Origin: a virus
Virus record (IMG/VR): IMGVR_UViG_3300043602_000084
Coordinates: 1 to 42,882 of that record
Reading direction: 5' to 3' (one strand)
DNA: 42,882 bases
Position numbers and translations under genes: made by a program. The notes under the pieces were generated by a model. That model made no database searches. It had not been told where the DNA came from and saw nothing but the letters and a program-made list of their open reading frames with translations. Of this stretch, positions 65-42,882 are shown piece after piece (positions within the stretch are counted from its first letter, which is position 1; every line of letters starts with the position of its first letter).

Positions 65-211
65 ATAGCGGGGCCGGCTTTCGAATTCTTGCCTACCCCC
101 CGGTGATCAGCCTCGAAGCCTTCGCGTTCGAGCCCCAACCGTCTTGATCTGATGATGCGAAGCGCAAAGGCACTGCCCATTGTTGATATCCAACAATGAA
201 CCACCATCACG
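64..211. repeat. terminal repeat, about 85% identical to 42735-42882
   Basis: These 148 bases align without net gaps to the last 148 bases of the window with roughly 22 mismatches by eye. Both copies hold the 3' end of a minus-strand HNH endonuclease gene and the leader that follows it, which at the right end leads into the small terminase gene. The two copies are too different to be one terminal redundancy of a single molecule, so they are either paralogues or variants of the same junction in a mixed population. Confidence 0.8.
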
Positions 212-436
212 AAGCTCAACGATGTGGTCCGAATACATACGATGCTCGGGCTGTGCCTTGGTGCACCTATGCCCATGGTCTACTGCCTCGCACCTACCAC
301 CAGCACGGGCCACCACCATGCTGCGCCATGCCCTGAATTGGGGTGTCGTATACGCCTCGTCCTTGACCTTGGGCGGTAGCTTGGTGGTGCGAGTGTCGAG
401 GGTGTGCACCAGGGAGGGCAGAGAGCGAAGCACCAT
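107..436 (-). CDS. HNH endonuclease
   Basis: A 109-residue HNH endonuclease. The core is visible: a Cys near residue 49 and a second at 58 frame the first zinc knuckle, followed by MYSDHIVEL (the first His of the motif, about residue 71), then NNGQCLCASHH with Asn 86 and the terminal His pair. Such small HNH proteins next to terminase are typical of cos-packaging long-tailed phages, where they act with the terminase holoenzyme in genome cutting. The gene begins 5 bases after the 112-aa gene ends. A second HNH gene with a very similar 3' end runs off the right end of the window just upstream of small terminase, so this copy may occupy the same place if the genome is circular. Confidence 0.88.
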   Translation of the reverse strand: MVLRSLPSLVHTLDTRTTKLPPKVKDEAYTTPQFRAWRSMVVARAGGRCEAVDHGHRCTKAQPEHRMYSDHIVELRDGGSLLDINNGQCLCASHHQIKTVGARTRRLRG

Positions 437-441
437 GGCGA

Positions 442-780
442 TCAGGTCCGCAGTGCAACGGCAAATTCCCGCGACTCTGCCTGCGGCACTGGCGCTTGTT
501 TGCTGCCCGAACGAAATTTGATGAATGCGCTGGCATTGGCCACATCGGTCGGCACGATCACGGCTGCGCCTGGGACGACCGACACCCTAGTCTCCGAGCC
601 CGAAGCAGAAACAAGTTGGTTGTAGCTCTGGCCATCGGACGAGATCTCAAACGTCAAGCTAGCCTTCGACCAAGCGGCCGGCATGGTGATGCGCACGACC
701 GTGCCGGCGCTGCAATCGATGGCATCAGACAGCGTTTCGCCGGCCGCAATCGTGGGGCCATTGATGATTGTCAGTGGCAT
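442..780 (-). CDS. conserved phage protein, 112 aa, beta-rich
   Basis: I do not recognise a named family with certainty. The protein has no signal peptide or membrane segment. Its pattern (short beta strands, a central stretch MPAAWSKASLTFEISSDG, and a late FIKFRSGS) resembles small phage proteins of unknown function that often sit beside HNH/terminase genes; a beta-sandwich fold is likely. It lies between the structured non-coding stretch at 781-1029 and the HNH gene, on the same strand. A role in the virion is possible but not shown by sequence. Confidence 0.7.
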   Translation of the reverse strand: MPLTIINGPTIAAGETLSDAIDCSAGTVVRITMPAAWSKASLTFEISSDGQSYNQLVSASGSETRVSVVPGAAVIVPTDVANASAFIKFRSGSKQAPVPQAESREFAVALRT

Positions 781-1029
781 TGATCGTTCTCCTCGCGGTC
801 ACTGTTAGGCATGAGCGCCAGGCGCCTCGGTATTTGGCTCGAGGAGGACAGACTTACCAAGGCACCTGGCGTCTGCTTTCCGAACCCCAGGACCCATTGG
901 ACAGGAGGGTTCAGAAAAACGCGCTGCACAGCAAAGAAGTCCCCAATTTACAGGGATATCTTTGGCAAATCAGGCCGTTATGTCCAATGGGTGATCCGGT
1001 TTCTATAACAATCCCTGCCTAGGGCGCAA
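781..1029 (-). ncRNA. candidate structured RNA between nusG-like gene and the late genes
   Basis: This is the longest non-coding stretch in the leftward operon and contains two strong inverted repeats. Arms 892-903 and 981-992 are a perfect 12-bp match enclosing 77 bases, inside which smaller hairpins (UCCC/GGGA, GCUG/CAGC on the minus RNA) can form. Arms 817-830 and 857-870 form a 14-bp stem with a 26-base loop. In that stem the two imperfect pairs are G-U in the minus-strand RNA but would be C-A mismatches in the plus-strand RNA, which argues that the functional molecule is the leftward transcript. No credible reading frame covers it. It may be a cis-acting antitermination RNA working with the neighbouring NusG-like protein, but paired protein operators are the alternative. 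Confidence 0.55.
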
Positions 1030-1518
1030 CTACAAACGCGCTACAGGTAGTGGTTCCACATCTCGGCCGGGCAGCTCGACCGGAACTTTCTGGCCCATGA
1101 GGTTGAGCAGTACCCAAACCCGATCCTTGCCGCTCATGCCCTCGCACAGCGCAGTCTGACCTTCGAAACTGCCGCGGGTGATGCGCACATGCTGGCCCTT
1201 GCGCAGCCGGTTGGTGGGCGACGGCAATTTGACGAAACCACCGACCTCACGTTTGCGGATCTCGGTCATGGTTTTCTCCGGTAGGCGTGCCGGCTGATCG
1301 GCCGACATCAGCAGGCGCACGACGTGGGGCGTCCACATGATCGGATAGAACTGCTCGATCACGCGCACGAAAATGTAACCGGGAAACAACGGCCAAACAC
1401 GACCGTGAACCTTGATCCTGGGCATGTAAGTTTCGAACCGCTCGCGCATGAGCAGCACGCGAACGGTGTGTTCGCACTGGCTTTCGACCTGCACGACCGA
1501 CCAATAGCTCATGTTCAT
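1030..1518 (-). CDS. NusG/RfaH-like transcription elongation factor
   Basis: A 162-residue NusG paralogue. Residues 4-90 match the NGN domain that binds the clamp helices of RNA polymerase: YWSVVQVESQCEHTVRVLL at the start and PLFPGYIFVRV around residues 43-53, the latter close to the RfaH version of the motif. Residues 106-150 form a KOW domain beginning RKGQHVRITRGSFEGQ. In bacteria, specialised paralogues of this family load onto polymerase at particular operons and suppress termination. The gene sits directly before a structured non-coding stretch and upstream of the HNH/terminase/late genes, which suggests late antitermination. Start is Met at 1518; Met at 1512 is an alternative. Function in this phage is inferred from family and context. 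Confidence 0.85.
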   Translation of the reverse strand: MNMSYWSVVQVESQCEHTVRVLLMRERFETYMPRIKVHGRVWPLFPGYIFVRVIEQFYPIMWTPHVVRLLMSADQPARLPEKTMTEIRKREVGGFVKLPSPTNRLRKGQHVRITRGSFEGQTALCEGMSGKDRVWVLLNLMGQKVPVELPGRDVEPLPVARL

Positions 1519-4085: not shown

Positions 4086-5099
4086 TTACGCCGCTACAGC
4101 TTGATTACCCCACACCGTCCACAGCACCCGCGCTGCAGGCGCGCGACTGAAAAGCTCGATCTTGCGGATCTCTGGATACATGCGATCAATGATGTCGTAG
4201 AAGACGTCAGGCTTGGCACTGTGCTCAAGCCGCGGTTGTTCTTGAACTGAATCAGGTCTCGCTTCCGGCGGTGGTGGTGGCAACTCGCCGCGCTTGGCAA
4301 TCAGCAAGGCTTCATGACGCTCGCGCGCGTGGTAGCCCATGCCGATTTTATCTTTCACCCAAACCATGTCGGTTCGGTATTGGAATCCCCACGCATCGAG
4401 AACCTTCATACATTCGTAAAGCTTTGGACTCGTCGCCCACATGAACAGCACCGAATTTTCATGCGCGATCTCTGCCACCGGCAGCGCACAGATTTCTTCG
4501 ATCGTCATTGTCGGATAGTGGTTCTCGATAGAACGATTAGACCCACCCATCGGCGGATATTCGTACTGCCAAGGTGGATCGGCATAGAGCACCGCAAACT
4601 TGCCGAGCCTCTGCGCCTCAAGATCAACCGCCACCGTCTTTTCTATTGCCGCATAGCGCGCGATCGCCGACTTGAGTTGGTTGGAGGACCATTCTTCTCG
4701 CACGGCGCGATCAAGCCAGCGGCGCTGTTGTGCAGGCGCCATTGGTGCAACAATTTTGTGGTGATGCCAGCCAAGATTCTCGGAGCGCTCCGAGATTTCA
4801 ACATGTCGAGCGACATAAGCGAAATCTTCCACAGTGCGATAATTCATTTCTTGCAGAGGGCCACCTTCCTCAAACAGCGCTTTGCGTTCGCCATAGGCAT
4901 GCTGACCGTAATTCCACCAATCGCCGAGCCACCACTGCACCGCGACTTCGATCTTGCCGAGCGATTGTCCGCACGCGATCCAATCCTCGAGGGACAGTTT
5001 CTTCGGCAACTCCCAACCCGTCCGGGTTAACTTCCCCGGCAATTGAAGGTCGAATTTCAGTTGCTCGCCGCCATTCTTTCTAATGATCGCTTTGCTCAC
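4086..5099 (-). CDS. MT-A70 family adenine methyltransferase with N-terminal extension
   Basis: Makes N6-methyladenine from S-adenosylmethionine, by family. The MT-A70 domain occupies the C-terminal half: DPPW around residues 174-177, FMWATSPKLYECMKVLDAWGF, VWVKDKIGMGYHARERHEALLIAKRG and HSAKPDVFYDIIDRMYP, ending LWTVWGNQ. The first 165 residues form an extra domain rich in Trp and His with no recognised family, possibly for DNA or partner binding. I choose GTG at 5099: it overlaps the upstream stop as GTGA and has a GGGGAGG ribosome site 6 bases ahead, whereas the ATGs at 5105 and 5114 lie on or beside that site. A second MT-A70 gene lies directly upstream. Confidence 0.88.
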   Translation of the reverse strand: MSKAIIRKNGGEQLKFDLQLPGKLTRTGWELPKKLSLEDWIACGQSLGKIEVAVQWWLGDWWNYGQHAYGERKALFEEGGPLQEMNYRTVEDFAYVARHVEISERSENLGWHHHKIVAPMAPAQQRRWLDRAVREEWSSNQLKSAIARYAAIEKTVAVDLEAQRLGKFAVLYADPPWQYEYPPMGGSNRSIENHYPTMTIEEICALPVAEIAHENSVLFMWATSPKLYECMKVLDAWGFQYRTDMVWVKDKIGMGYHARERHEALLIAKRGELPPPPPEARPDSVQEQPRLEHSAKPDVFYDIIDRMYPEIRKIELFSRAPAARVLWTVWGNQAVAA

Positions 5100-5800
5100 T
5101 CCCATCCTCCCCATCCCTTGCCGCCGCTGGCCTTGCGCTCGCGGATCACGCGGTAGGCTTCCTCGATGCTGCGCGAGAAGTCGTCGGTCGCGTCGTAGTT
5201 GTCGGGCTGCGCAAACTTGTCGACTTCATTGCCCCACACGTCCCAGCCAGGACGCCGTTGCCGCGCAAACAATTCGAGGTAAGGGCCGGCGACTAGCCGC
5301 TCGATCCGCTCGTGCGTGCAATCGGGCTTGCGGCTGTGCTCGCGCCGCGGTTCGATGATGGCTTGGCGTACATCGGCGTTGAGACGCTTAGGTCTGCCGC
5401 GCGTTGCCAGCAAGCACGGCTCGGTGTTGGCGCGGGTCCAGTAGCCCATTCCTACCTGCGCCGGTAACGTCTGCTCAAAAAGCTCTAGTTGACCGGCGTG
5501 AGCTTTTGTCCAAACGAAAGCGGCGGTCTTGAACTTGAAGCCCCAAGCATCAATTACTGCGAACGCATCCGGCAATTGCGGCCAACACGCCCATAAGAAC
5601 AGCACACAATCCGAGGCGGCTAAGTCATCCACCGCCAGCGCACAGATTTTCCGCGTAGTCATTACGTTGTAATAGCGCTCGACCGCGCGGGTTTTGTCGC
5701 CATTTTTTAGCTCTTTGAATTGCGACCACGCCTCAAAACGCCACGGCGGATCGGCGAGGATCGCCCCGTAATGCCCGCGCTTGAGTCCGTCGAAACTCAC
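5096..5800 (-). CDS. MT-A70 family adenine methyltransferase (minimal form)
   Basis: A 234-residue MT-A70 enzyme without the N-terminal extension of its neighbour. DPPW is at residues 17-20, followed by a conserved HYxxM-like segment (ERYYNVMTTRKICAL), VLFLWACWPQLPDAFAVIDAWGF, GMGYWTRANTEPCLLATRG and HSRKPDCTHERIERLV. An acidic C-terminal tail of about 45 residues follows WDVWGNE. GTG at 5800 overlaps the gcrA-like stop as GTGA and has GAGG about 8 bases ahead; upstream ATGs at 5842 and 5827 would force a 31-46 base overlap. Expected product is N6-methyladenine in DNA; target sequence unknown. Confidence 0.88.
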   Translation of the reverse strand: MSFDGLKRGHYGAILADPPWRFEAWSQFKELKNGDKTRAVERYYNVMTTRKICALAVDDLAASDCVLFLWACWPQLPDAFAVIDAWGFKFKTAAFVWTKAHAGQLELFEQTLPAQVGMGYWTRANTEPCLLATRGRPKRLNADVRQAIIEPRREHSRKPDCTHERIERLVAGPYLELFARQRRPGWDVWGNEVDKFAQPDNYDATDDFSRSIEEAYRVIRERKASGGKGWGGWE

Positions 5801-6306
5801 TGCTTCCCTCGCGGGTGCGCCATCCATGTGTGATGCGAGCAATAGACCTCGCCCTCGCGCGTATCCGCAGCGCAGAACAGGTGCGCCACGCCCATCAGTT
5901 CACCGACGAGCGGCCAGCGGCAATGATGCGGCTCGAGCTGCGCCAGCCGCAGCCTGCGCATGGTGGCCGGCTCCGTTGGTGGGGTTGGCGCCGGCGCTGC
6001 TGGCCGCAGCCGTGATGGTTGCGGTGGTGGCGGTGATGGTTTCGGTTGCGGTCGCCGTGGCTTGCCGTTCGCCCGCAGGCGAGGCTTGCGCTCCAGCGGC
6101 TGCCGATCTTTGCGCGCCGGCAATTCCAGCCGATGCGCCCGCCCGATCACCGCGCAGCGCGTCAGTTTGCTGCCGTTTGCCAGCTTGTCCGCGATCAGCG
6201 AGGCGCTGTAGCCCTGCGCCCACAGCTGCTTGAGCGCCTCGTCGCGCTCGGCCGTCCACGGGGTATTGAAGGAGTTATGCTGGTTTTCGGGATAGGTAAG
6301 CGACAT
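5797..6306 (-). CDS. GcrA-family cell cycle regulator homologue
   Basis: A 169-residue GcrA homologue. Residues 16-62 show the GcrA helix-turn-helix: PWTAERDEALKQLWAQGYSAS, then IADKL and TRCAVIGRAHRLEL. A long basic Pro/Arg linker (about 63-115) precedes the C-terminal domain with CRWPLVGE, FCAAD and EVYCSHHTWMA, the sigma-70-binding part in Caulobacter. Host GcrA binds promoters carrying adenine-methylated GANTC sites and activates with sigma-70. Here it heads an operon with two adenine methyltransferases. I choose ATG 6306; the longer frame to 6405 enters the palindrome-rich control region. No GANTC occurs in 6307-6682, so its target may be elsewhere or a different methylated motif. Confidence 0.88.
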   Translation of the reverse strand: MSLTYPENQHNSFNTPWTAERDEALKQLWAQGYSASLIADKLANGSKLTRCAVIGRAHRLELPARKDRQPLERKPRLRANGKPRRPQPKPSPPPPQPSRLRPAAPAPTPPTEPATMRRLRLAQLEPHHCRWPLVGELMGVAHLFCAADTREGEVYCSHHTWMAHPRGKQ

Positions 6307-10541: not shown

Positions 10542-10769
10542 GTGAGCCGAGCGCCGAGTAATTTCCGCCAGCAAGATGTAGCCCGCGCGATCAAGGCGGC
10601 CAAAGGCAGCGGCCTCGATATCGTGAAGGTCGAGATCGACCCGAAAACGAGCAAGATCACGCTGGTGGTGAAGAAAGATAAGGACGACGAGATTTCAACG
10701 CCGGTCAGTGAATGGGCAACCGCCTCGACTGACTGGGCATTACCGAAACGAAAGCTGAAACGAAAATGA
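10542..10769 (+). CDS. conserved small protein upstream of integrase, 75 aa
   Basis: Begins (V)SRAPSNFRQQDVARAIKAAK from GTG at 10542, with GGGAG 9 bases ahead; the frame is open from a TTG at 10527 but that start lacks a ribosome site. Proteins with this start (SRAPSNFRQ.DV.RA..AAK..G..) commonly precede phage integrase genes in Rhizobiales; their function is unknown to me. Residues 28-45 form a small beta hairpin (IVKVEIDPKTSKITLVVKK). The stop overlaps the integrase start by 4 bases. Confidence 0.72.
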   Translation: MSRAPSNFRQQDVARAIKAAKGSGLDIVKVEIDPKTSKITLVVKKDKDDEISTPVSEWATASTDWALPKRKLKRK

Positions 10770-11818
10770 GAACGCGCAAATACCGATGGATTAACGTTTT
10801 TCGCAGCAAGAAAACCGGCGGCATTTATGTCTACTTCCGCCGGCCAGGACAGAACGGCAGCATCTCGCTCCCCACCACCATCGGCTCGTCGGAGTTCGAT
10901 GCCGCCTATGCGGCCGCGGTGCATGGGCAGAACGTCGCGCAAGCGGCAGCCACGACGCGCTCCGGGCTGGGATCGATCAACGCCACCGTGGCGCAGTATC
11001 TGGACTCCAGTGCTTTCACCGTCCTGGGCACCGGCACGCAGGGCTTGCGGCGCGGGCTTCTCAACAAGTTCTGCCGCGCGCACGGCGACAAGCGGATCGC
11101 GACCCTCGACCGGGATTATATCGAGCGCCTGCTGCAGGACATGCCGACGCCGGTGGTCGCGCGCACCTTGCTGCTCGCGCTGCGCCCGCTGATGGCGTTC
11201 GCCAAGACCGCGCAGTTGATCTGCGTCAACCCAACCGACGGCATCAAGATCAAGCTGCCGAAGTCCGATGGTCACCACACCTGGACCGAGGCCGAGATCA
11301 CCCAGTTCCAAATGCATCACCCGATGGGCACCATGGCGCGGCTCGCCCTCGAACTGATGCTGGAACAGGGCATGCGGCGCAGCGACGTGATCCGCGTCGG
11401 CCGCCAGCACATGCGCAAAGGCGAGATCACCATCACCCAGATCAAGACCGGCGCCGAGGTGACGCTCGAGGTGAGCCCCGAGCTGGCGCAGGCGATCGCC
11501 GCCTATCCGAGCGGCCACCTGACGTTCTTGACGACTGAGGCGGGTGCGCCCTTCACCGAGAAGAAGTTCAACGACTGGTTTCGCAGGCAGACCAACGCCG
11601 CCGGCCTCCCGGCGCGCTGCGTGCCGCATGGCCTGCGCAAAGGCTTCGCGCGGCGCCTGGCCGAGGCCGGTTGCTCGACCTCGGAGATCGCCGCCTCGAC
11701 CGGCCACCTGACGCTGCAGGAGGTCGATCGCTACACCAAGAAATATGACCGCAAGCGCGGCGCTAAGGCCGCCATGGCCAAGAAGCGCGCCGCCCATGCC
11801 CTCGAGACTGCGGCATGA
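10766..11818 (+). CDS. int: tyrosine-type phage integrase
   Basis: A 350-residue site-specific recombinase that inserts and excises the phage genome. The N-terminal 60 residues are a small beta-rich arm/core domain, residues 70-160 the SAM-like core-binding domain and 172-330 the catalytic domain. Catalytic residues are visible: Arg204 in EQGMRRSD, Lys227 in TQIKTG, His288 and Arg291 in VPHGLRKGF, His314 in STGHLT and the nucleophile Tyr323 in VDRYTKKY. It is complete. Its position inside the window, not at an end, shows that the sequence is not bounded by att sites. A candidate attP region lies about 600 bases downstream. Confidence 0.93.
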   Translation: MRTRKYRWINVFRSKKTGGIYVYFRRPGQNGSISLPTTIGSSEFDAAYAAAVHGQNVAQAAATTRSGLGSINATVAQYLDSSAFTVLGTGTQGLRRGLLNKFCRAHGDKRIATLDRDYIERLLQDMPTPVVARTLLLALRPLMAFAKTAQLICVNPTDGIKIKLPKSDGHHTWTEAEITQFQMHHPMGTMARLALELMLEQGMRRSDVIRVGRQHMRKGEITITQIKTGAEVTLEVSPELAQAIAAYPSGHLTFLTTEAGAPFTEKKFNDWFRRQTNAAGLPARCVPHGLRKGFARRLAEAGCSTSEIAASTGHLTLQEVDRYTKKYDRKRGAKAAMAKKRAAHALETAA

Positions 11819-12953: not shown

Positions 12954-13448
12954 ATGCGAAAAATGAAACAATTCTTTTATGCGAAAATTGAAAATGGTCG
13001 TGACGAACTTGTGACAACGTGCAACCTTGATGATGTCTGGGAGGACCGCACACCACAGGAAAGAGGTGCGGCCTTGACGAACATCATTAATCCACGATTA
13101 GGGAAACGTCTGCGCCAAATCCGCGAAGCCCGCGGCCTCTCACAAGGCAAGCTCGCCCAGTTGATCGGCGTCAGCGTCGGCACAGTGCAGAACTACGAGC
13201 ACAGCCGTAACCGCATCCCCGCCGATCGTATCGAGCCGATTGCGATGGAGCTGCAATGCCGGCCCGCCGATCTGCTGATGCCGCCGGATGCGCCGCCACC
13301 ACCTCCGCGCCGCCGCCACCTCATGTCCCTTTGGCTCGTCGCCGTTTTAACGGCGGCTCCGGTTCCTGCGTGGCCGCCACAGCTCGCCCTCGAGCTTGAG
13401 CAGATCGCGGATAAGTTTGAGCGGATCAATCCCGATGATCTCGCATAG
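12954..13448 (+). CDS. XRE-family transcriptional regulator
   Basis: A lambda-repressor-like HTH lies at NPRLGKRLRQIREARGLSQGKLAQLIGVSVGTVQNYEHSRNRIPADRI, followed by a short tail with DLLMP and a Pro stretch. The frame is open from ATG 12954, but that start has no ribosome site and opens in AT-rich DNA; TTG at 13074, with AGGAAAGAGG ending 7 bases ahead, is an attractive alternative giving a 124-residue protein that starts just before the HTH. The 3' 102 bases overlap the convergent XRE gene at 13347-13631, so the C-terminal 30 residues are antisense to it and may carry little function. Probable early or lysogeny regulator. Confidence 0.78.
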   Translation: MRKMKQFFYAKIENGRDELVTTCNLDDVWEDRTPQERGAALTNIINPRLGKRLRQIREARGLSQGKLAQLIGVSVGTVQNYEHSRNRIPADRIEPIAMELQCRPADLLMPPDAPPPPPRRRHLMSLWLVAVLTAAPVPAWPPQLALELEQIADKFERINPDDLA

Positions 13449-15621: not shown

Positions 15622-15651
15622 AAAAAAGGCCGCCGCCCGTGGGCGACGGCC
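15622..15651 (-). terminator. rho-independent terminator of the leftward late operon
   Basis: Arms 15628-15638 and 15641-15651 form an 11-bp GC-rich stem. On the minus-strand RNA the one imperfect pair is G-U and the stem is followed by six U (15627-15622). The plus-strand RNA would carry an A-C mismatch and no U-run. It lies 43 bases beyond the last leftward gene, so it closes the roughly 27-kb late operon. Confidence 0.85.
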
Positions 15652-15693
15652 CTGATTGTGGTCCTGGAAAGCGCCTTACGAGCAGCAGCAAAC

Positions 15694-16494: not shown

Positions 16495-16949
16495 CAAGCT
16501 ATCGGCTGCGGCTCACCGACCGGCGTGATGGTGCCGGCGACCGCTTCGCCCGCGACGATGTCGACGTCCATGGTGGTGATGATCTCGCGCACGCCACTGC
16601 CGAGATCGGCGTCGGCCGTGCAAGTGACCTGCACCTGCCCGACTGTTCCGCCCGGCGTCACCGTGGCCTGCGTGGAATCGCCGGCATTGGTTTCCACGGT
16701 TGCCAGGTTGGGGTCGGACGTGTCCCAGGAAACGTCGCCGTCCACCTGCGCGGGATTGCCCTTGCTGTCGACATACGCGACCTGCACTGCGATCATTTTG
16801 TCGTTCGGAAGTTTGTAAGCCATGCCATCTCCGCAAGCGGTGAGAGTGAGCCCGTCATAGCGGATGGTGATCCTTGCGCCGGGACGGGATGCCGGCTCAT
16901 CGATCAGAAATTTGAGCGTGCCGCCAAGCTGAAATTGCAGCGTGTTCAT
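16494..16949 (-). CDS. Ig-like (BIG2-type) domain protein, 151 aa
   Basis: Residues 45-145 read as a bacterial Ig-like domain: MIAVQVAYVDSKGNPAQVDGD, VSWDTSDPNLATVETN, QATVTPGGTVGQVQVTCTAD. The N-terminal 45 residues form another small beta domain. Phages often display such domains on virions to stick to carbohydrates or cell surfaces. Here it follows the endolysin with a 4-base overlap, which is an unusual location; it may be a virion decoration or envelope-binding factor. Confidence 0.7.
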   Translation of the reverse strand: MNTLQFQLGGTLKFLIDEPASRPGARITIRYDGLTLTACGDGMAYKLPNDKMIAVQVAYVDSKGNPAQVDGDVSWDTSDPNLATVETNAGDSTQATVTPGGTVGQVQVTCTADADLGSGVREIITTMDVDIVAGEAVAGTITPVGEPQPIA

Positions 16950-18544
16950 GCCGGCGCGTTGCCCGTGATGACCACCCGCGCGCTGCCGGGCGGATCGATG
17001 GTGATGGTGATGGTCGCGATCACCGGCTCAGGCTCGGGCGGTTCCGGCGGCGTCGGCTCGGCTTCCAGCACCAGCTCTTGCACCTTGAGCAGCAGGTCGT
17101 CGGCGTCCTTGTTGATCTCGACTTCCTTGCGGTTGATCGGTCCCCAATGCTTGCGCAGTTTGCGCATACCGATGCCAGTGACGAAGGCGGCGAACGACGG
17201 CGAGAACTTGGCCAGGAACTGGTAGCGAGCACCGTCGCCGCTGCCAAAGCTGCCGAGCCCCGCCGCTGTCGGGCTCAAGCCTTGCTGGAATGACGGGAGG
17301 AAACCATTCGGGTCTTCCCAATACTCTGTCAGCAGCGGCGCAATGTTCGAACTGCACGAGCGGATGTTATACGATGTCTGGAACAGGCCGGCCTCGCACG
17401 TTTCAGACGATGTGTTCGACGCAGTGGTGTCGCGCCCTTCATAGTATTTGCCGGACGACTCGCGCATCCCGAGCCCGATCATCATCACGAACAGGTGCCG
17501 CAGGGTGTCATAGCCCGCAGTCGAATTGTTCATGCCCTTGGCGGCAAACTCGCTGCGATACCACGTCAGCGCATCGGTTTGATCGTCGGAACGCTGCGCC
17601 TGCGCCATCTCGACAGCACGCGGCAACCCTTCATCCAGTTCCAGCACCGCCACACCGAACGCATTGGCCATGCCGTTGAGATAGGCGCGCGGCGCCTTGC
17701 CGCGATCCTTCCACGAGTAATTCACCAGCGGAGACTTGCCGACCAGATCGACGATGGCCGAGCTCAACTCTGGCGGCATTAGACCGTCGTCGCCTTCGTC
17801 CATGCGCGCATTCAGATCGTCGACCGCCGCCCATGTGTCGTTGCCGACCACGCCGTCCGCAGACAACTTCGCCGCCGCCTGGAAGCTCTTGACCTGTGCA
17901 TCAGTGATCGCGCCGAAGTCGCCATCGGCTGGGACGAGGCCGAGCGTGATCTGCAGCGCCGCGACATCCGGCCCCTTGTCGCCTTTCTGGAGCTCGCGCC
18001 GCTCGGCTGGCGGCACCGGCGGCAACGGACCAGCCGCGCTCGGCCAGACCAGCGCGATCACGCTGCTGATCGGGAAGCTCTGCGTGTTGATGGCGTCGGA
18101 CTGGTTGCCGCCGCGGCAGACGTAATTGCTGCCCGACGTGCTCTCATACAGCGTGACATGGCCGCCGCCGGATCGCGTCATCACCACGATGCAGCCGGGC
18201 CGCGGCGAGACCAGCCGCGCATAGCCGGGATCGCTCGCCCATGCTTGCGCCCACAGAAACTTGTCGGTGTCGGTCGGGCCGAACACCGGCCGGATGCCGG
18301 CCATGGTCATGCAATAGGCCACAGTGAGCCCGCACCACGGCACCGAGTCGTGATTGTACTGCGCGCAATAGTCCGCCATGTCCGGATAGGTGCGCGCGAT
18401 CTCCGCCGCCATCGCCATGATCTTCGGATTGTCGGCGGCGCCTGGCGTCTCGGTCATGCCCGTGATCGTGCGCATCACCAGCAGCCATTCCGGTGTTTCG
18501 TCCGCGCGCGTACTACGCGCAACTTGCGGTGCCGCCATCATCAT
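16946..18544 (-). CDS. three-domain endolysin (NlpC/CHAP-like, PG-binding, lysozyme-like)
   Basis: A 532-residue cell-wall hydrolase. Residues 15-168 resemble the TIGR02594/CHAP-like peptidase family, with Cys71 in SVPWCGLTVAYCM and His129 in GGGHVTLYE. Residues 183-242 are a PG_binding_1 repeat (LQKGDKGPDVAALQITLGLVPADGDFG). Residues 265-475 look like a lysozyme/transglycosylase domain with a candidate catalytic Glu362 in GMRESSGKYYEG and EAGLFQTSYNI around 384-394. A Pro/Glu hinge and a short beta strand close the protein. Two cutting domains in one protein are unusual for Gram-negative phage endolysins. No signal peptide, so holins are expected to release it. Confidence 0.8.
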   Translation of the reverse strand: MMMAAPQVARSTRADETPEWLLVMRTITGMTETPGAADNPKIMAMAAEIARTYPDMADYCAQYNHDSVPWCGLTVAYCMTMAGIRPVFGPTDTDKFLWAQAWASDPGYARLVSPRPGCIVVMTRSGGGHVTLYESTSGSNYVCRGGNQSDAINTQSFPISSVIALVWPSAAGPLPPVPPAERRELQKGDKGPDVAALQITLGLVPADGDFGAITDAQVKSFQAAAKLSADGVVGNDTWAAVDDLNARMDEGDDGLMPPELSSAIVDLVGKSPLVNYSWKDRGKAPRAYLNGMANAFGVAVLELDEGLPRAVEMAQAQRSDDQTDALTWYRSEFAAKGMNNSTAGYDTLRHLFVMMIGLGMRESSGKYYEGRDTTASNTSSETCEAGLFQTSYNIRSCSSNIAPLLTEYWEDPNGFLPSFQQGLSPTAAGLGSFGSGDGARYQFLAKFSPSFAAFVTGIGMRKLRKHWGPINRKEVEINKDADDLLLKVQELVLEAEPTPPEPPEPEPVIATITITIDPPGSARVVITGNAPA

Positions 18545-26078: not shown

Positions 26079-26470
26079 CAGACTTGCCTCTGCTCGGCTT
26101 CAAGATTCCACGCCACTTCGGCCGCCCATTCGTCGCGCGAGGTGTTCCAGGCGGTGACCTTGGCCAGGATGGTCAGCACGTCGACGGACGTGCCGGTATT
26201 GGAAACGCCGAGTCCGGGAATGCATTGGATGGTGACATCCTGGCCGGGCCAGATGTCGGTCAGCACCGGCGCCTCGTGATCGGTGCAAGTAATCGAGACC
26301 TTGTATTGCCGGAACTGCGCCACTGAAATGTCGGCGAGGAAACCGCGGCAGTCGCGCGCCACGTTGGCGGCCTGCTCGATCGGCTCGAGCGTCATGGTAA
26401 TGCCACGCACGGCATAGTCCGAGAAGTCGATGTTATCGATCGCCAGCAAGGTGTAGGGCGGATGCGCCAT
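26078..26470 (-). CDS. minor tail protein, 130 aa
   Basis: A single-domain protein between the tape measure and the hub-like protein, position-matched to distal tail proteins. Segments: LLAIDNIDFSDYAVRGITMTLEPI, CRGFLADISVAQFRQYKVSITC, VLTILAKVTAWNTSRDEWAAEVAW. It is beta-rich with three Cys. One-base overlap with the downstream gene. Function from gene order. Confidence 0.7.
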   Translation of the reverse strand: MAHPPYTLLAIDNIDFSDYAVRGITMTLEPIEQAANVARDCRGFLADISVAQFRQYKVSITCTDHEAPVLTDIWPGQDVTIQCIPGLGVSNTGTSVDVLTILAKVTAWNTSRDEWAAEVAWNLEAEQRQV

Positions 26471-28548
26471 CAGGAATACCGGCTGGGCTTGCGGCCGCCG
26501 CTGCGAACTTGCGCCAGCGCCGCCGCCCGGTGCAATTCATCCACCACCGCAGACGAGGCGCGCAGGCCGCTGATCGGAGCCAGGCCGGGGAACGCGATGG
26601 TGACATGGCTCATGCCGCCAACCGCGCCGCCAGCGGCAAACGCCGGCATCCGCGGGACCATCCCGCCGAGCGCGAACCGGCCCATGCCGTCGAGCACGTT
26701 CGAGAGGTTACCGCCCGAGCGCCGCAGCGCCTCCAGGAAGGCCAGCACGCCCGGCTGTGCCACTGCTCGCGCCGGCATGATGTGCTCGCCGCGCGACACC
26801 CAGGCCAGATTGGAATCCGAGGTGCCGGTGCCGCGACCGCCGAGCAGCCCGCCACGGGCGCTGCGGCTCGCACTCAGCGCGCTGCTGACCGCTGCCGCCA
26901 TGTCGGTGATGATCCGGGCAAGATCCATAATCACGGATGACTGGCTCTTGATCGCCTCGGTGTTGGCTTCGATCGCCTGCACCATGCTATCGACGGACAC
27001 GTTGACGGTTCTTGTTCCGCCGCCACCCACCAGGCCGCCGCCGGCAAACCGCTGCGCGTTGAGCGCGGCAAACAAACCCGCTCCGTACTTGCGCACGGCC
27101 GCCGCCCGCACCACGAACTCGCCGCGCGAGAGCCACGCCAGGTTGCTGTCCGAGGTGCCAGTGCCGCGGCCACCGATCATGCCGCCGCGCGCATTGCTGC
27201 CGATGCCGCCTTGGCCTATTGGCTCGCCGCCCGGAAGCGGCGTGTCGCCGGCCTTTTTGAGCAGTCCCAGCCATTGCAGCAATGTCCGCATTCCGTTTTC
27301 GAGCTTCGCAGTGAGCGCGTCGACCCAACTGCCTAACCCCTCAAACCCGGTCAAATCCCAAACGAATTTGACCCCGACCGCAGCGAGCCCTTGGATGGTA
27401 AAATAGTTTAGCGCATTGCCGGCGGCCATGACGGCATTCGTAAACGTCGTCCACGAAAGGTTATCAATTGCAGCTTGCAAGGTCTGCAGCATTGTCGTCA
27501 CCGCATTGATTTCGGCGGTGACGAAAGGCGCGAAGCTCGTACTGCCGAAGCGCGCAAATGCAGCTTGCAGCTTGGTCATGGCCTGCGTCAGCAGGAGCGC
27601 ATTGGCCTCGGCGGGCGGGAGCGAACCCTCCGCTAATCGCAAACTCTGGATGAATTCAGCGGCTGCAGGCCCCAGTAATTTGAACGCCAGTGCGGTGCGT
27701 TGCGCCCCGTCCGGCAATCGCTCCAAAAGTTCTTTGAACGCCTCCATCTGATCTGCGGCATCGGCATCGATGTCGATCTCGACCTTTTGCCCGGTGACCT
27801 GCTCGACCAGTGCTTTCAGCCTGGCAAGCTCGAGCCCGAGCTTTTGGATATCCTTTTCGCTGACGCCTGGAATCTTGTAGCCCAGCGACAGCAATGCTTT
27901 AGCCGCAGCATCGCCAACAGCGGTAAATTCCAGCGCCTGCTTCTTCAATCGTTCGAGCGCCGCGCCCGACCCGATAAAACCATTCTTTACTGACTCAGCA
28001 TCGCGCGCGACCCGCTCGAGCCGCATGCGCTCGATGTTTTGTTGCACATGGGCAAAAGCGGAGCTGATGCCTTGCGCGGATATTCCAAACGCCTCCAATT
28101 TTTGACGCGCCGCATCGAACTCCTCGAAGCTCAGGCCGAGCTTGATCGCCTCGGTGCTGATCTTGGTTATTGATTGGGCAAACGCGATCGTCTGCTTGTT
28201 GATAGCCGCAATTGCCGCCCCGGCCACCAGGCCTATTGGCACAATGGCCCGGCCCAATGCCGCAAAAGCAGTCTCTGCCGATTGCACACCGACGACGAGA
28301 CGCTCCCAGTTGGCCGCCTTGGACACCGCCGCCTGAATCTTGTCGACCGCGGCCGTGCCCTCGACGCCCAGGCTCTTGAGTTGCGCGGTGACGGCTTCCG
28401 GCTTGAGGTTCCTGAAGCCGCCGACCTCCGTGGCCGATTTCTCGATCTGGGCAAACGCCTTTTCTCCCGCCTTGCCGATATCGGCGAGCTGGCGCTCGAT
28501 CTCCTTGCCGCCCTCGAGCGCAATTTGAACCGACAGTTTCTCGGCCAT
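26470..28548 (-). CDS. tail tape measure protein, 692 aa
   Basis: Sets tail length. The N-terminal half is a long helical, Ala/Glu/Lys-rich region (LEGGKEIERQLADIGKAGEKA), with hydrophobic helices around residues 95-115 and 340-400. The C-terminal part repeats a block GGRGTGTSDSNLAW.SRGE twice (about residues 467-500 and 568-600), with the second followed by ARAVAQPGVLAFLEALRRSGG; this repeat is typical of tape measures in temperate siphophages. By the usual rule of about 1.5 angstrom per residue the tail would be near 100 nm. Confidence 0.88.
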   Translation of the reverse strand: MAEKLSVQIALEGGKEIERQLADIGKAGEKAFAQIEKSATEVGGFRNLKPEAVTAQLKSLGVEGTAAVDKIQAAVSKAANWERLVVGVQSAETAFAALGRAIVPIGLVAGAAIAAINKQTIAFAQSITKISTEAIKLGLSFEEFDAARQKLEAFGISAQGISSAFAHVQQNIERMRLERVARDAESVKNGFIGSGAALERLKKQALEFTAVGDAAAKALLSLGYKIPGVSEKDIQKLGLELARLKALVEQVTGQKVEIDIDADAADQMEAFKELLERLPDGAQRTALAFKLLGPAAAEFIQSLRLAEGSLPPAEANALLLTQAMTKLQAAFARFGSTSFAPFVTAEINAVTTMLQTLQAAIDNLSWTTFTNAVMAAGNALNYFTIQGLAAVGVKFVWDLTGFEGLGSWVDALTAKLENGMRTLLQWLGLLKKAGDTPLPGGEPIGQGGIGSNARGGMIGGRGTGTSDSNLAWLSRGEFVVRAAAVRKYGAGLFAALNAQRFAGGGLVGGGGTRTVNVSVDSMVQAIEANTEAIKSQSSVIMDLARIITDMAAAVSSALSASRSARGGLLGGRGTGTSDSNLAWVSRGEHIMPARAVAQPGVLAFLEALRRSGGNLSNVLDGMGRFALGGMVPRMPAFAAGGAVGGMSHVTIAFPGLAPISGLRASSAVVDELHRAAALAQVRSGGRKPSRYS

Positions 28549-36020: not shown

Positions 36021-36197
36021 TTACTGCTCGAGCGGCGGCGACTCGTGCAGCAGGCGGACCGCGCTGGCGACTTGTCCGGCGAGCTCGGGCGGCAGCGCGA
36101 TCTTGGTGATGGCTTCGGCGACGTAGTCGCGCACGAACGGCACCATGCCCTTCGCCAATTCGGTGACTAGTTCGGTGGTGTCGTTGGCATCCATCAT
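36021..36197 (-). CDS. hypothetical protein, 58 aa
   Basis: A short gene between portal and the collagen-like fibre. The start overlaps the portal stop as ATGA and the stop abuts the next ATG. The product, [20 protein letters not shown] through [10 protein letters not shown], is mostly helical ([30 protein letters not shown]). No recognised family. Coupling makes it convincing. Confidence 0.65.
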
Positions 36198-37579
36198 GCG
36201 GCCTCGCGATGTATGGCCTGCAATGCCCGCGTGAATTGCTGCGCGATGTCCTTGGCGGGCTTCGGCGCCGGCTCGGGCGGCTGGTCCTGTGCAGCTGGCT
36301 GCGCTGGTGCGGGCGGCGTGGCCGGCTTGAACGGATCGGCCTGCGCGTCGCGTTTGGCGAGCGCCTCAAGTGAGTAATTTTGTTGCTGGAGGAAGGGTTG
36401 GTCGCCGCCCTTGACCGGCTTGAGGTCAAACTTCGCGCGGCCCTCGTTGGGTGCCATCGTGCCGGCGCCCTGCAGAATCTGCACCGTGGTCGCCAGCGTG
36501 ACGCTGTCCATGCGCAAGAGGTTGTCGGTATCGAACTCGGTGCCGAGTCCTTCGCCCCAGCCGATGCCGAGCGCCTGGTCGAGCAGCTCCTCGATTTCCT
36601 CGATGTGCGACTGCAGCGCTTGAGAGTAATACTCGACGTTCAGGGCCTGCACATTGTTGTAAGTCGGCAGCACGCCGACGCCGACTTTGTAGGGCGGCAC
36701 ATGATAGACGCTGCAGACCACCTCGGCCGACCATTTCAACTGCTCGATCATCTGCGCTTCGACGTTGGTTATCGAGACCTTCTCGTACTTGGCACCAGCA
36801 CTCAGGACTGCTACACGGCCGAGATTAGGCCCCGAAAACCGCTGCTCGAATTGTTCCTTGACTCGCTGTTCCTCCACGACATCGATCGAGCCGGGATAAA
36901 TGACCATGCCGCCAGGCTGTGAAGCATTCTTGAACAGCAGCGCCGAGGTCTTTTGCGCATTGATGCCGAGCATCGAGGCCAGGCCAGAGGCGAACACCGG
37001 CGGCGTGCCGACCAGCGGGTGAAACAAACAGTTAAAACGATCGTGGATGATCTCGCGCGCCGGCACGATGATGTCGTCGATGTCGGCCAGGTTGTCGCTG
37101 CTCAAGCGGTAGAACACGCTACCGTCGTCGGCGACCAGCGGCTGCACCCGCATCGGATCGAGCACATGCAGCGCGGTCACCACCTGGCGGTTATCGCGCA
37201 CCTTGAGCACATAGGTATTGCCGCGCGAGAGCTTCGACAGCACCCAACTTTCCCAGAATTGATTCCGGGTTTGATAATCATTGGGCCGCCGCAGCACCGG
37301 ACTGAAAGCCGGGTTTGTGGTCTCCGACCAGATGTCGTTCTTGTCCTTCTCGGCGAGCTTCACCCGCAGCTTGCCGATATCGCGGGCGATCAGCGTCTTG
37401 CAGGCGAAGTCGGCGTGAAACGATGCGGCGGTGTCGACATTGATCTCGAGGTTGCGCTGCCACGCGCCGGTGAATGGCTCGCGAATGATCGGGTACCAGC
37501 CGCCGCGGCCTTCCGGCACCGAGTTGAGCGCCTTGCGCTGCTCGCCAGTAAACGGAATCGGCAGGCCGAAGATCCGCAT
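36194..37579 (-). CDS. HK97-type phage portal protein
   Basis: A 461-residue portal. The family blocks are visible: NVDTAASFHADFACKTLIARDIGKLRVKL, RRPNDYQTRNQFWESWVLSKLSRGNTYVLKVRDNRQVVTALHVLDPMRVQP, HDRFNCLFHPLVGTPPV, SVYHVPPYKVGV, NNVQALNVEYYSQALQSHIEEIEELLDQAL. The C-terminal 60 residues are a Pro/Ala-rich tail (PATPPAPAQPAAQDQPPEP) that probably protrudes into or outside the head. It forms the dodecameric DNA entry ring. One-base overlap with the upstream 99-aa gene. Confidence 0.92.
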   Translation of the reverse strand: MRIFGLPIPFTGEQRKALNSVPEGRGGWYPIIREPFTGAWQRNLEINVDTAASFHADFACKTLIARDIGKLRVKLAEKDKNDIWSETTNPAFSPVLRRPNDYQTRNQFWESWVLSKLSRGNTYVLKVRDNRQVVTALHVLDPMRVQPLVADDGSVFYRLSSDNLADIDDIIVPAREIIHDRFNCLFHPLVGTPPVFASGLASMLGINAQKTSALLFKNASQPGGMVIYPGSIDVVEEQRVKEQFEQRFSGPNLGRVAVLSAGAKYEKVSITNVEAQMIEQLKWSAEVVCSVYHVPPYKVGVGVLPTYNNVQALNVEYYSQALQSHIEEIEELLDQALGIGWGEGLGTEFDTDNLLRMDSVTLATTVQILQGAGTMAPNEGRAKFDLKPVKGGDQPFLQQQNYSLEALAKRDAQADPFKPATPPAPAQPAAQDQPPEPAPKPAKDIAQQFTRALQAIHREAA

Positions 37580-37941: not shown

Positions 37942-39918
37942 TTAGGCGGTGTGGACGGGTCCGCCCCAATCGGCGCTGGTCAGATACGCAACCGACTGCG
38001 CCCTGCCCCTCATCCAGTTGATGATTCGCTCGGCGCGAATCGCAACCGTGTTTGTTTGAAACATGCTGATCAACGATGTCGGACCAGTCGGCGTGATCGA
38101 ATCGTGCACCGGCGCATCCGACATTTCGAGCGAGGCCTCGCGACTGGCATCGATGGCAATATCGCCATCGTCCGCGACGAAGATGTCAGAGGCGTTGACC
38201 AGCACGACGATGTTCATGGCCTGGGTAACGTAGTCGCTTGCGATCACCGGCATGCCGTTGAGTATGCCGCCGCGCATCGACATGCTCGGGAATTCCGGCT
38301 GTCCAAGCGCATTGGTCATCATCGCCAATGCAACCGCATTGTTCGATGACATGATCCATACCCCGCTCTGCACTGGATTATTGGCCGCTGAGAATTTGGC
38401 GTACAGCGACCGGATATCCATGCGGATAGCATCGGCATCATCTCCCGACGACACGATCGATGCGGCGCCGTTGGTGATCGATGCCGGCGAGACGCCCGCC
38501 ACCGCGGTCTTGGACGGGCTGATGAAGTCGATATCCAGCCGTTCCCGCAATGCCGCCGCCAGACTGTCGCGAACAATGATGTCCGACTTCGGATTGCTGT
38601 AACGAATCGACTCGTCGGTGAGCGCGCAGATGTTGGCGACTTTGGTCGGCGGAAGTGTCGTGCGCGCGAAGTTGAACGAGGTGAGCGGCTTGGCTTTGCC
38701 CTGTCCGACCCAGTAACCGGCACCGCCACCGGTCTGCGTGACGATCGGCGTGTTGAACATCACCGAGCGCAGGGCCGGAATGCCATCGATGCCGAAACGA
38801 CCGAGGATGGTCATCGGACGAAGGTATTCGAGAAAAGCCGCGACTGCAGCGCTCTCAGTGCTGTACAGGTTGGCTCCCCAGTTGCCGCTGATCGTTGAAC
38901 CGGCCGGGACGTTGGCTTTGAACTCGCCGACGATGGCGCTATCCGAGCCATACATTTCCGCCGCGATGTCGACGGCAGGGCGAAACGCCTTTTGCGACAG
39001 CGCCAGGCATTTGACTTTCTGGGCAAACAACTGGCCGACCTCCATCTTCGGCTGCGGCTTGACGATGATCGAGCCACCGCGGGCCGCAGCGCCCTCATGC
39101 TGCGTCTCTGCCTTAATGACCGGCCTGGCCGCGAACGCCTTGGCCTGCTCGATCTTGCGCAGCCTCACAAGATCCTTGTCCAGCGCCTCGACCTCGCCCG
39201 AGAGCGTGTCGAACTCGTCCTGCTCGCCCGCGTCCGAGGTCCGATCCTCGTCGAGACTCTTCTGCATCACGGCTTCCATGCGTGCCGCACTCGCGGATCG
39301 CTTGGCTTCTAAAGCTGTAATCTGTTCGGCAATGGTTTTCATGGCGCCCTCCAGGGCAGCAGACTTCGGTTGCGAGGATCCCGAGGCGCCGGGCGGGTTG
39401 AGATGAACGACACGGCGCGGCTTCGTTTGGCCGGACGCGGCCCGCTGCGCAGTGTCGATCGATTTCACGGTGGCGATGGTGGCTTCGCTGTTGGCCGGGA
39501 TGGTCACGGCGCTGAGCTCGAGCCAGTCCCACTTGATGAAGCGAATGCCGTCAGTCTCTTCGATGAATGAACGCTCGATCGCTTTGAACCCGATCGACAG
39601 ACCGGATACGAGGCCGATCTTGAGCGTCTGCCAGGCTTCGTCGAGGCGATCCTTAAGCCGCCCCGGCTCGGCAATGCGCGCGATCTTGGCGACGATCTCG
39701 ATGCCAGCCTTGGTGACCTTGGCGCGGGTGACATGGCCAATCGGCTCGCGCGAATCGTGTTGCCATAGCAACGGCAGCGGCAATTTGAACTGCGCGCCGT
39801 CCGGCTCGACCACATCCTGCAGCCGATCCGGCATTGGCGTCGTCGCCATGCCGGTGATGATCCGCGCGTCCTCGTCGACCCCCTTAATTGAAAGGAGGCT
39901 ATAGGCTCGGTTCAACAT
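37942..39918 (-). CDS. fused prohead protease - major capsid protein (HK97 type)
   Basis: A 658-residue fusion. Residues 1-170 are an S78-like prohead protease: His54 in LLWQHDS, Ser108 in VSGLSIGF and Glu134 in DWLELSAVTIP are the probable catalytic residues. Residues 193-290 are the helical scaffold-like delta region, and 300-658 the HK97 capsid fold (ISGNWGANLYSTESAAVAAFLEYLRPM, YWVGQGKAKPLTSFNFARTTLPPTKVANICALTDESIRYS). Met193 (ATG 39342) is preceded by GGAGGG, so capsid protein may also be made alone by internal initiation, giving the excess of capsid over protease that assembly needs. In most HK97-type phages the two are separate genes. Confidence 0.88.
   Translation of the reverse strand: MLNRAYSLLSIKGVDEDARIITGMATTPMPDRLQDVVEPDGAQFKLPLPLLWQHDSREPIGHVTRAKVTKAGIEIVAKIARIAEPGRLKDRLDEAWQTLKIGLVSGLSIGFKAIERSFIEETDGIRFIKWDWLELSAVTIPANSEATIATVKSIDTAQRAASGQTKPRRVVHLNPPGASGSSQPKSAALEGAMKTIAEQITALEAKRSASAARMEAVMQKSLDEDRTSDAGEQDEFDTLSGEVEALDKDLVRLRKIEQAKAFAARPVIKAETQHEGAAARGGSIIVKPQPKMEVGQLFAQKVKCLALSQKAFRPAVDIAAEMYGSDSAIVGEFKANVPAGSTISGNWGANLYSTESAAVAAFLEYLRPMTILGRFGIDGIPALRSVMFNTPIVTQTGGGAGYWVGQGKAKPLTSFNFARTTLPPTKVANICALTDESIRYSNPKSDIIVRDSLAAALRERLDIDFISPSKTAVAGVSPASITNGAASIVSSGDDADAIRMDIRSLYAKFSAANNPVQSGVWIMSSNNAVALAMMTNALGQPEFPSMSMRGGILNGMPVIASDYVTQAMNIVVLVNASDIFVADDGDIAIDASREASLEMSDAPVHDSITPTGPTSLISMFQTNTVAIRAERIINWMRGRAQSVAYLTSADWGGPVHTA
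39347..39352 (-). promoter_or_regulatory. internal ribosome-binding site for the capsid part of the fusion
   Basis: GGAGGG on the minus strand lies 4 bases ahead of ATG 39342, in frame with the fusion gene, between the protease part and the helical delta region. Translation from here would give a 466-residue capsid precursor. This is inferred from sequence; no experimental support. Confidence 0.5.
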
Positions 39919-40147: not shown

Positions 40148-40354
40148 TTATCGATAATGCCAGGTAAATTTATTTTGCGGTTTACCCGCGATCGTTTCGG
40201 CCTTGTCTTTCGCCTGCTTCAATTTCAATCTTTCTGACAAATTACCATCTGGCAAAATAACCCGAAACATACGCGGATTGTTCGTATCTCTACGAACCCA
40301 TCCTGCCAGCCTGTCTCCATCATGAAGACGATATGGTTCGACCAACTTCTTCAT
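40148..40354 (-). CDS. hypothetical protein, 68 aa
   Basis: No named family. Basic protein with LVEPYRLHDGDRLAGWVRRD and FRVILPDGNLSERLKLKQAKDKAE. The start overlaps the terminase stop as ATGA, so it is co-translated with the large terminase. Base composition is lower in GC than the neighbours. Function unknown. Confidence 0.6.
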   Translation of the reverse strand: MKKLVEPYRLHDGDRLAGWVRRDTNNPRMFRVILPDGNLSERLKLKQAKDKAETIAGKPQNKFTWHYR

Positions 40355-42365: not shown

Positions 42366-42671
42366 TCAGTTGACCTGATTAACCTCGAGGTCGTCGGACC
42401 ACTCGGTGCCCGCCCCGCCAGCCGTCGCCGCAGCCTCGGCCCGCTGGTCCTTTTTGCCCATGGGTGCAGCATCAGTCAGCCGGGGATGGCAGTAGGGTGC
42501 CGCCGCAATCGCCAACCGGTCCTTGCGGTCTGAGTCGGCGGTCGGATCGTTGATAACCATGAGCAAATAATCGAGCGGACGCATTTTGCCGGGCTGAATA
42601 TCGGCTTCAACAATCAACCGAGCTTGCGCCCGCGACCGCTCAATGGCGTCTTTTCTGCTCAGTCTTTTCAT
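42366..42671 (-). CDS. terminase small subunit
   Basis: A 101-residue protein just before the large subunit. MRPLDYLLMVINDPTADSDRKDRLAIAAAPYCHPRL is a pattern of one small-terminase group (P.dyll..mnDp..d...R...A..aaPy.HPr), which binds the packaging start site. The C-terminal 35 residues are acidic and probably contact the large subunit. Confidence 0.8.
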   Translation of the reverse strand: MKRLSRKDAIERSRAQARLIVEADIQPGKMRPLDYLLMVINDPTADSDRKDRLAIAAAPYCHPRLTDAAPMGKKDQRAEAAATAGGAGTEWSDDLEVNQVN

Positions 42672-42777
42672 ACAGAAGTTCCACCAGATGCCTTATTTCG
42701 CTGAAAAAAATCTCTGCGTGACTAAGGGCGCGGGTATAGCGGGGGCGACTTTCAAATTCGGACCCACCCCCCCTGGA
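42672..42777. other. leader between HNH and small terminase, candidate cos region
   Basis: The 106 bases between the HNH stop and the small terminase start hold no gene. They include a run of C (42764-42773), the conserved core TATAGCGGGG at 42735-42744 (also at 64-73), and an AT-rich stretch with seven T on the minus strand. In phages with HNH next to terminase the cos site usually lies here; the break of this window at the same junction fits that idea. Confidence 0.35.
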
Positions 42778-42882
42778 TCAGCCTCGAAGGCGTCGAGTTC
42801 GAGCCGCAACCGTCTTGATCTGGTGATGCGAAGCGCAAAGGCATTGGCCATTGTTGAGATCGAGTAACGAACCACCATCACG
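42778..42882 (-). CDS. HNH endonuclease, partial (3' end only)
   Basis: The last 34 codons of an HNH gene run in from the right edge: RDGGSLLDLNNGQCLCASHH, then a basic tail ending RTRRLRG and TGA at 42780-42778. It matches the end of the HNH protein at 107-436 except for two residues, although the DNA differs at about 15% of positions (mostly silent changes). The N-terminal two thirds lie outside the window. Confidence 0.8.
   Translation of the reverse strand, partial: RDGGSLLDLNNGQCLCASHHQIKTVAARTRRLRG

Follow-up and report, generated by a model that had tools for sequence, protein, structure and literature searches.

What a NusG-type protein and the structured RNA directly downstream of it do at the entry to the late genes of a phage is the question raised by this locus. 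The window, i.e., the whole stretch of DNA analyzed, is an IMG/VR viral contig of 42,882 bases. It is a temperate phage, with an integrase and a repressor on the plus strand, and the packaging, head, tail, and lysis genes all on the minus strand. The following genes and sites were used.

10766-11818, plus strand: integrase.
12954-13448, plus strand: repressor.
1030-1518, minus strand: NusG/RfaH-type paralogue (NGN + KOW), 162 aa (PF02357, 1.3e-12; phrog_6386, 1.5e-19).
442-780, minus strand: 112-aa ORF between the RNA and the HNH gene; also in L005, absent from L002, L003, L004, and L022.
107-436, minus strand: HNH endonuclease, 109 aa (phrog_589, 5.9e-14).
42366-42671, minus strand: terminase small subunit (TerS; phrog_641, 4.8e-9).
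40351-42090, minus strand: terminase large subunit (TerL; phrog_9, 2.3e-97).
37942-39918, minus strand: major head protein with protease domain, late operon (phrog_617, 2e-147; phrog_80, 1e-33).
36194-37579, minus strand: portal protein, late operon (phrog_2271, 6e-124).
26470-28548, minus strand: tape measure protein, late operon (phrog_3547, 1.2e-28).
16946-18544, minus strand: baseplate lysozyme/endolysin-like protein, near the end of the late operon (phrog_1259, 1.8e-18; phrog_2649, 2.3e-11).
15626-15653, minus strand: strong intrinsic terminator at the end of the late operon (12-bp stem and T-run).

The head protein and the maturation-protease domain are fused in a single 658-aa ORF. Elsewhere in the window, the overlapping adjacent ORFs 4086-5114 and 5096-5842 both belong to the DNA methyltransferase family phrog_359.

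The first-pass annotation had described a complete NGN + KOW protein at 1030-1518, and the family searches, AlphaFold, and Foldseek all agree with this. The ORF scored over the Pfam cut-off for PF02357 (NusG) and matched PHROG 6386, which is annotated as 'transcription antiterminator'. The two domains that characterize the NusG/RfaH family, NGN and KOW, are both found in the 162-aa protein. They were also present in its AlphaFold model (mean pLDDT 82.9), including the beta strands of the C-terminal KOW domain; NusG and RfaH were the best structure matches (Foldseek), and RfaH was the top PDB sequence match. No relative of the window protein was found at E < 1e-5 among 50,697 phage records. For two other members of the NusG group, the matches in bacterial records were all host-type NusG/RfaH, and one Microcystis phage NusG was matched weakly. 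Cellular NusG paralogues of alphaproteobacteria reached scores of up to 131 bits; going by these nearest cellular relatives, an alphaproteobacterial host is only suggested. The NusG paralogue of L004 (1328-1864) carries an insertion of ~18 residues within the NGN domain.

In the window, the genes downstream of the RNA are split between the two contig ends. The 3' end of the HNH gene and a G-run ... CTATACC segment are found at both of them (60-115 and 42760-42882), and the contigs of L002 and L016 also end at the G-run segment, so joining the ends is reasonable; the segment is the probable cos region. The joining had already been proposed, and the gene order of relatives bears it out: NusG-RNA-HNH-TerS-TerL are contiguous in L004 and L022, and the order in L005 is NusG-RNA-orf-HNH...TerL. 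In most members, HNH lies 73-765 nt downstream and TerL is found downstream on the same strand. The TerL seeds of L041 and L043 turned out not to be terminases, and both loci were left out of the terminase-positive count; no confirmed terminase was found within ~5 kb for L041, L043, L068, and L069. The terminator reported near 15.64 kb was recovered as a 12-bp stem with a T-run (15653-15626), and in L004 and L022 the stretch from the RNA to TerS showed no convincing terminator. A joined late operon, running from the RNA through HNH, terminase, head protein, portal, and tape measure to this terminator, is thus a reasonable reconstruction.

The interval 781-1029 (249 bases), downstream of the NusG ORF on the minus strand, had a predicted folding energy of -98.9 kcal/mol, compared with -80.0 +/- 5.2 for its shuffles (z = -3.6). 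Its parts are listed in the direction of transcription.

1024-1029, minus strand: -35-like hexamer TTGCGC of a putative late promoter; the TTG keeps its spacing from P1 in most phages.
1002-1007, minus strand: -10-like hexamer TATAGA; 16-nt spacer, ends 9 nt before P1.
1000-1005, minus strand: alternative -10-like hexamer TAGAAA; ends 7 nt before P1.
982-992, minus strand: 5' arm of P1 (ACCCATTGGAC); 11 of 11 P1 pairs with double compensatory changes.
932-964, minus strand: hairpin H1; two-by-two internal loop and A-rich apical loop, compensatory changes in 12 of 12 pairs.
919-929, minus strand: short hairpin H2; GUGC-AGC-GCGU core near-invariant, 96.6% of cells paired.
906-918, minus strand: 5' arm of the pseudoknot helix (TTTTCTGAACCCT), within P1.
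892-902, minus strand: 3' arm of P1 (GTCCAATGGGT), pairing with 982-992.
876-888, minus strand: 3' arm of the pseudoknot helix (GGGGTTCGGAAAG), after P1.
816-871, minus strand: terminal hairpin P4, 17 bp (855-871 with 816-832); C-rich loop with CCTCCT.

The outer stem P1 had been given as a perfect 12-bp stem; the stem stands, and its length is 11-12 bp (12 as an ungapped helix). The hairpin behind the claimed second stem is likewise present, at 17 bp instead of 14. The pseudoknot helix (906-918/876-888), in which the segment between H2 and the 3' arm of P1 pairs with sequence beyond P1, had been missed, as had the hairpins 932-964 and 919-929 and the promoter-like site at 1002-1029. Three unpaired or loop stretches are near-invariant, namely UAA after P1, the A-rich loop of H1, and GUGCAGCGCGUUU at H2, and these are candidate contact sites.

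Relatives were collected by protein searches of viral contigs and by an RNA-pattern scan. Conservation of the stems beside the gene, which the first-pass annotation had put forward as a check, was clear, and the lack of covariation that it named as refuting its reading did not occur. In an alignment of 24 RNAs, which was fitted to the model and so favors the fold, 91.5% of pair cells held standard pairs, and double compensatory changes were seen at 23 of the 27 pairs. Cells with double changes numbered 139, compared with 39.7 +/- 5.0 in shuffles, and pairing fell to 35-52% when the partner was slid by 1-3 columns. The blind matches and the separate pseudoknot test described below are independent of this alignment. 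P1 illustrates the point, as its sequence is wholly changed between the window (ACCCATTGGAC/GTCCAATGGGT) and L005 (ATCCCGTCGAA/TTCGACGGGAT) with the pairing kept; pairing is also kept with other letters in L123 (CCCACCAGG/CCTGGTGGG) and L054 (CCCTCATTCCCGC/GTGGGAATGAGGG). G-U cells (35) exceeded A-C cells (14), which indicates that the nusG-coding strand is the functional RNA.

The pseudoknot was tested by swapping its arms between phages. Across 16 phages, cognate arms paired with a mean energy of -17.5 kcal/mol versus -10.8 kcal/mol for swapped arms (permutation p = 5e-5), and the same p was obtained after thinning to 12 phages. P1 was set by hand for this test, as automatic partner choice failed where P1 was misassigned (L005, L051). 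The pseudoknot was also present in all six later test phages with clear matches (p 0.001-0.041). Behind it, almost all of the 25 phages compared have a GC-rich P4 hairpin with a long C-rich loop, which reaches p <= 0.05 in 22 of them. The P4 loop carries the motif CCTCC or TCCTAGCC in the window and its relatives.

A covariance model (R1) was built from four RNAs and run over 98 sources (778 kb). Blind matches were obtained in L002, L005, L004, L124, L054, and L123 (E 1e-23 to 4e-7), followed by weaker ones down to E ~0.2, and NusG preceded each of the forward-strand matches on the coding strand. On the reverse strand, the same stems gave echoes and L040 gave one unrelated match, all at E >= 0.4. 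A further model (R2) found 19 loci at E < 0.1, every one downstream of NusG. On seven contigs fetched later, R2 matched just after NusG at E < 1e-3 (L170, L178, L189, L182, L180/L181, L187; L180 and L181 share the same sequence region). The loci searched with the models had been chosen by NusG and are not a census of the RNA across viruses. Two checks did not start from NusG: a pattern scan of the whole viral collection and retrieval by HNH. The DNA pattern scan of viral contigs gave 19 loci, 8 of them with the fold and all 8 adjoining NusG, these 8 including several repeat contigs or near-copies. The other 11 lacked NusG as well as any obvious fold and were taken as chance matches. No match of the RNA model was found in 385 alphaproteobacterial genomes, in a run without a positive control, or at cellular NusG loci.

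In a tree of 110 NusG proteins, 29 rows were RNA-bearing (26 by the covariance model, one near-copy, and two by hand), and all 29 fell inside one 41-row phage group without cellular members, the base of which is weakly supported (94/38). The RNA was not detected for six phage rows of this group. L068 and L069 have NusG and the RNA without an HNH match, and the HNH homologues L125 and L128 have neither NusG nor the RNA; the RNA thus follows NusG, not HNH. The corresponding slot in L125 (3161-3709) and L128 (2982-3761) holds other proteins, that of L125 being DUF6456-like just below the Pfam cut-off, with other hairpins before HNH. Because the same HNH occurs there with other slot proteins, the late-control module may be swapped between phages. 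Taken together, the comparisons strongly support the RNA as a real, strand-specific element that is inherited along with one NusG clade and is located at the entry to the late genes.

The promoter-like site was defined by the pattern TTGNNN-N16/17/18-NANNNN, with the second hexamer ending 6-9 nt before P1. It was found in 17 of 22 phages, compared with 0.8% per offset elsewhere, and again in 5 of 6 later test phages. The hexamers are degenerate, with 6-9 of 12 matches, and in the close family of the window the -35 shares bases with nusG codons. L037-L039 have an ORF between nusG and the RNA, and the site (TTGACA in each of them) is found beside the RNA, so it is more than conserved nusG coding sequence. 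Transcription is predicted to start at ~992, on P1's first base, which would make the RNA a 5' leader to the genes downstream. It had earlier been placed in the middle of a transcript reading through from nusG; this placement is revised, the RNA being probably the 5' leader of a late mRNA that starts at the promoter-like site overlapping the nusG stop.

By comparative sequence analysis, the fold of the RNA, its pseudoknot, and its strand are established, together with the fixed promoter-like site, the co-inheritance with a NusG clade, and the position ahead of the late genes. From the architecture, i.e., a conserved RNA and a NusG paralogue at the late entry, and from the precedents of LoaP, put, and lambda Q, we infer protein-RNA binding, a transcription start, and antitermination in the late module. 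We consider it fairly probable that NusG and the leader RNA form a processive antitermination complex for the late genes, in the place of lambda Q. Counting against this reading are the missing terminator between the RNA and TerS in L004 and L022, the absence of a U-run behind P4 in the window, the degenerate promoter hexamers, the weak base of the NusG group with its six rows without the RNA, and the four loci with no confirmed terminase within ~5 kb. As with Q in lambda, the phage NusG would come from the early operon. The paralogue being the last gene before the late region, with a putative sigma70-like promoter overlapping its 3' end, the late transcript would open with a ~180-nt leader that folds into the pseudoknotted RNA (P1 around H1 and H2, a second helix threading P1, and then P4). 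The pseudoknot would fold near the RNA exit channel of the polymerase, and the nascent RNA would capture the phage NusG on RNA polymerase, or stabilize it there together with a direct polymerase contact. From there on, the polymerase would no longer respond to terminators or Rho across the HNH, terminase, head, and tail genes, as far as the 15.6 kb terminator.

Among the other explanations, the one that survives best, itself unlikely, is that the RNA is an autonomous antiterminator acting on RNA polymerase like HK022 put, with NusG acting elsewhere or adding only processivity. The put element (two adjacent stem-loops, ~70 nt) acts at the transcript start in early operons and needs no phage protein (PMC9378689). 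The leader RNA resembles it as a phage RNA at the 5' end of an operon transcript (the predicted +1), with two adjacent hairpins (H1 and H2) and a proposed action on RNA polymerase, but adds an enclosing stem and a pseudoknot, neither of which is in the description of put, and no R2 match was found in HK022 25-40 kb. The strict linkage of the RNA to one NusG clade, superfluous for an autonomous element, also speaks against action without a phage protein.

Slightly less credible is a 3' untranslated or leader element that serves nusG autoregulation, HNH translation, or message stability, with no antitermination. The RNA does follow nusG immediately and often borders on the HNH start, and in L003, L004, L016, and L022 a few nt lie between P4 and the HNH start codon. 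However, ORFs intrude before HNH in the window and L005, and after nusG in L037-L039, and the site and the RNA stay together; L068 and L069 have no HNH match, and with a promoter-like site ahead of it, the RNA is set apart from the nusG message.

A conditional terminator or attenuator (H2 or P4 with a U-run), relieved by NusG as Q relieves tR', is improbable. P4 is near-universal, the T-rich tracts behind it in L038 and L061 suggest that it is perhaps a tR'-like attenuator, and the leader length resembles that of the pR'-tR' leader, but the P4 loops are long, P4 is without a U-run in the window and its family, and the terminator scan does not flag it. There is very little to commend a DNA element for packaging or end cutting (a cos/HNH/terminase site) or a replication origin. 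In its favor, HNH and the G-run segment at which several contigs stop are both downstream of the stems, but that segment is a separate conserved element after HNH. The packaging/DNA reading was rejected as a main explanation on the G-U excess over A-C mismatches, the pseudoknot, and the linkage to NusG, and the HNH-partner reading on that linkage and on L068/L069.

Antitermination by NusG and the leader RNA together thus remains the preferred reading and was compared with known systems. No Rfam family scored over the gathering threshold in the window or in 15 related loci; the sub-threshold matches to Atu_C6 and snoR135 were weak and were judged to be chance. No prior description of a NusG-RNA module was found in the literature covered, which includes few subscription papers. 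PHROG 6386 includes the window protein, and its annotation gives no RNA partner or target. The leader RNA would be a new RNA family within NusG-type processive antitermination, and NusG, the promoter-like site, and the knotted RNA together look like a new RNA-guided switch for transcription of the whole late operon.

RfaH and LoaP are examples of NusG paralogues that counter pausing or termination. RfaH belongs to the same protein family as the phage NusG but is recruited by the ops DNA element, whereas the conserved element in the phages is an RNA. In lambda, Q is the last gene before the late region, a promoter overlaps it or directly follows, a leader comes next, and the circularized genome is read through the joined ends. 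The genomic slot and layout are thus the same as those of lambda Q/pR'/tR'. Unlike the proteins here, Q is unrelated to NusG and recognizes a DNA site at the promoter; no Q homologue was found in the late-control slot, which holds a NusG-type protein (PF02357, phrog_6386) and an RNA fold. The Caulobacter gene transfer agent, in which GafZ provides antitermination for a 14-kb cluster (PMC11150451), indicates that long structural-gene operons in Alphaproteobacteria can need antitermination devices.

The closest parallel is LoaP of Bacillus velezensis, which antiterminates in vivo only if the 5' leader carries an RNA element, the dfn/mln hairpin (PMC12691694). Both systems have a specialized NusG paralogue adjoining an operon and a conserved leader RNA, the downstream operon being the presumed target in the phages. 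The RNA of LoaP is a small UNCG-type hairpin in Bacillus biosynthetic operons, whereas that of the phages is pseudoknotted, ~120 nt long, and located at the predicted start of the late mRNA, where the protein would bind it. By eye, no UNCG-capped hairpin was seen in the window fold (H1 loop A-rich, H2 AGC, P4 C-rich). The chance is slightly better than even that the late genes of widespread uncultured phages are under a NusG paralogue directed by a nascent, pseudoknotted RNA at the 5' end of the late transcript, which would be the first NusG-RNA partnership of a virus. If so, this would be a further principle of late control beside Q-type proteins and phage sigma factors or polymerases, and a candidate mechanism for a phage group known from metagenomes alone. 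Beside LoaP, the module would stand as a second, independent-looking NusG-RNA pairing, this one viral, with a new RNA family marked by heavy covariation and a pseudoknot, and as a compact system for how a nascent RNA and a NusG paralogue could reprogram RNA polymerase.
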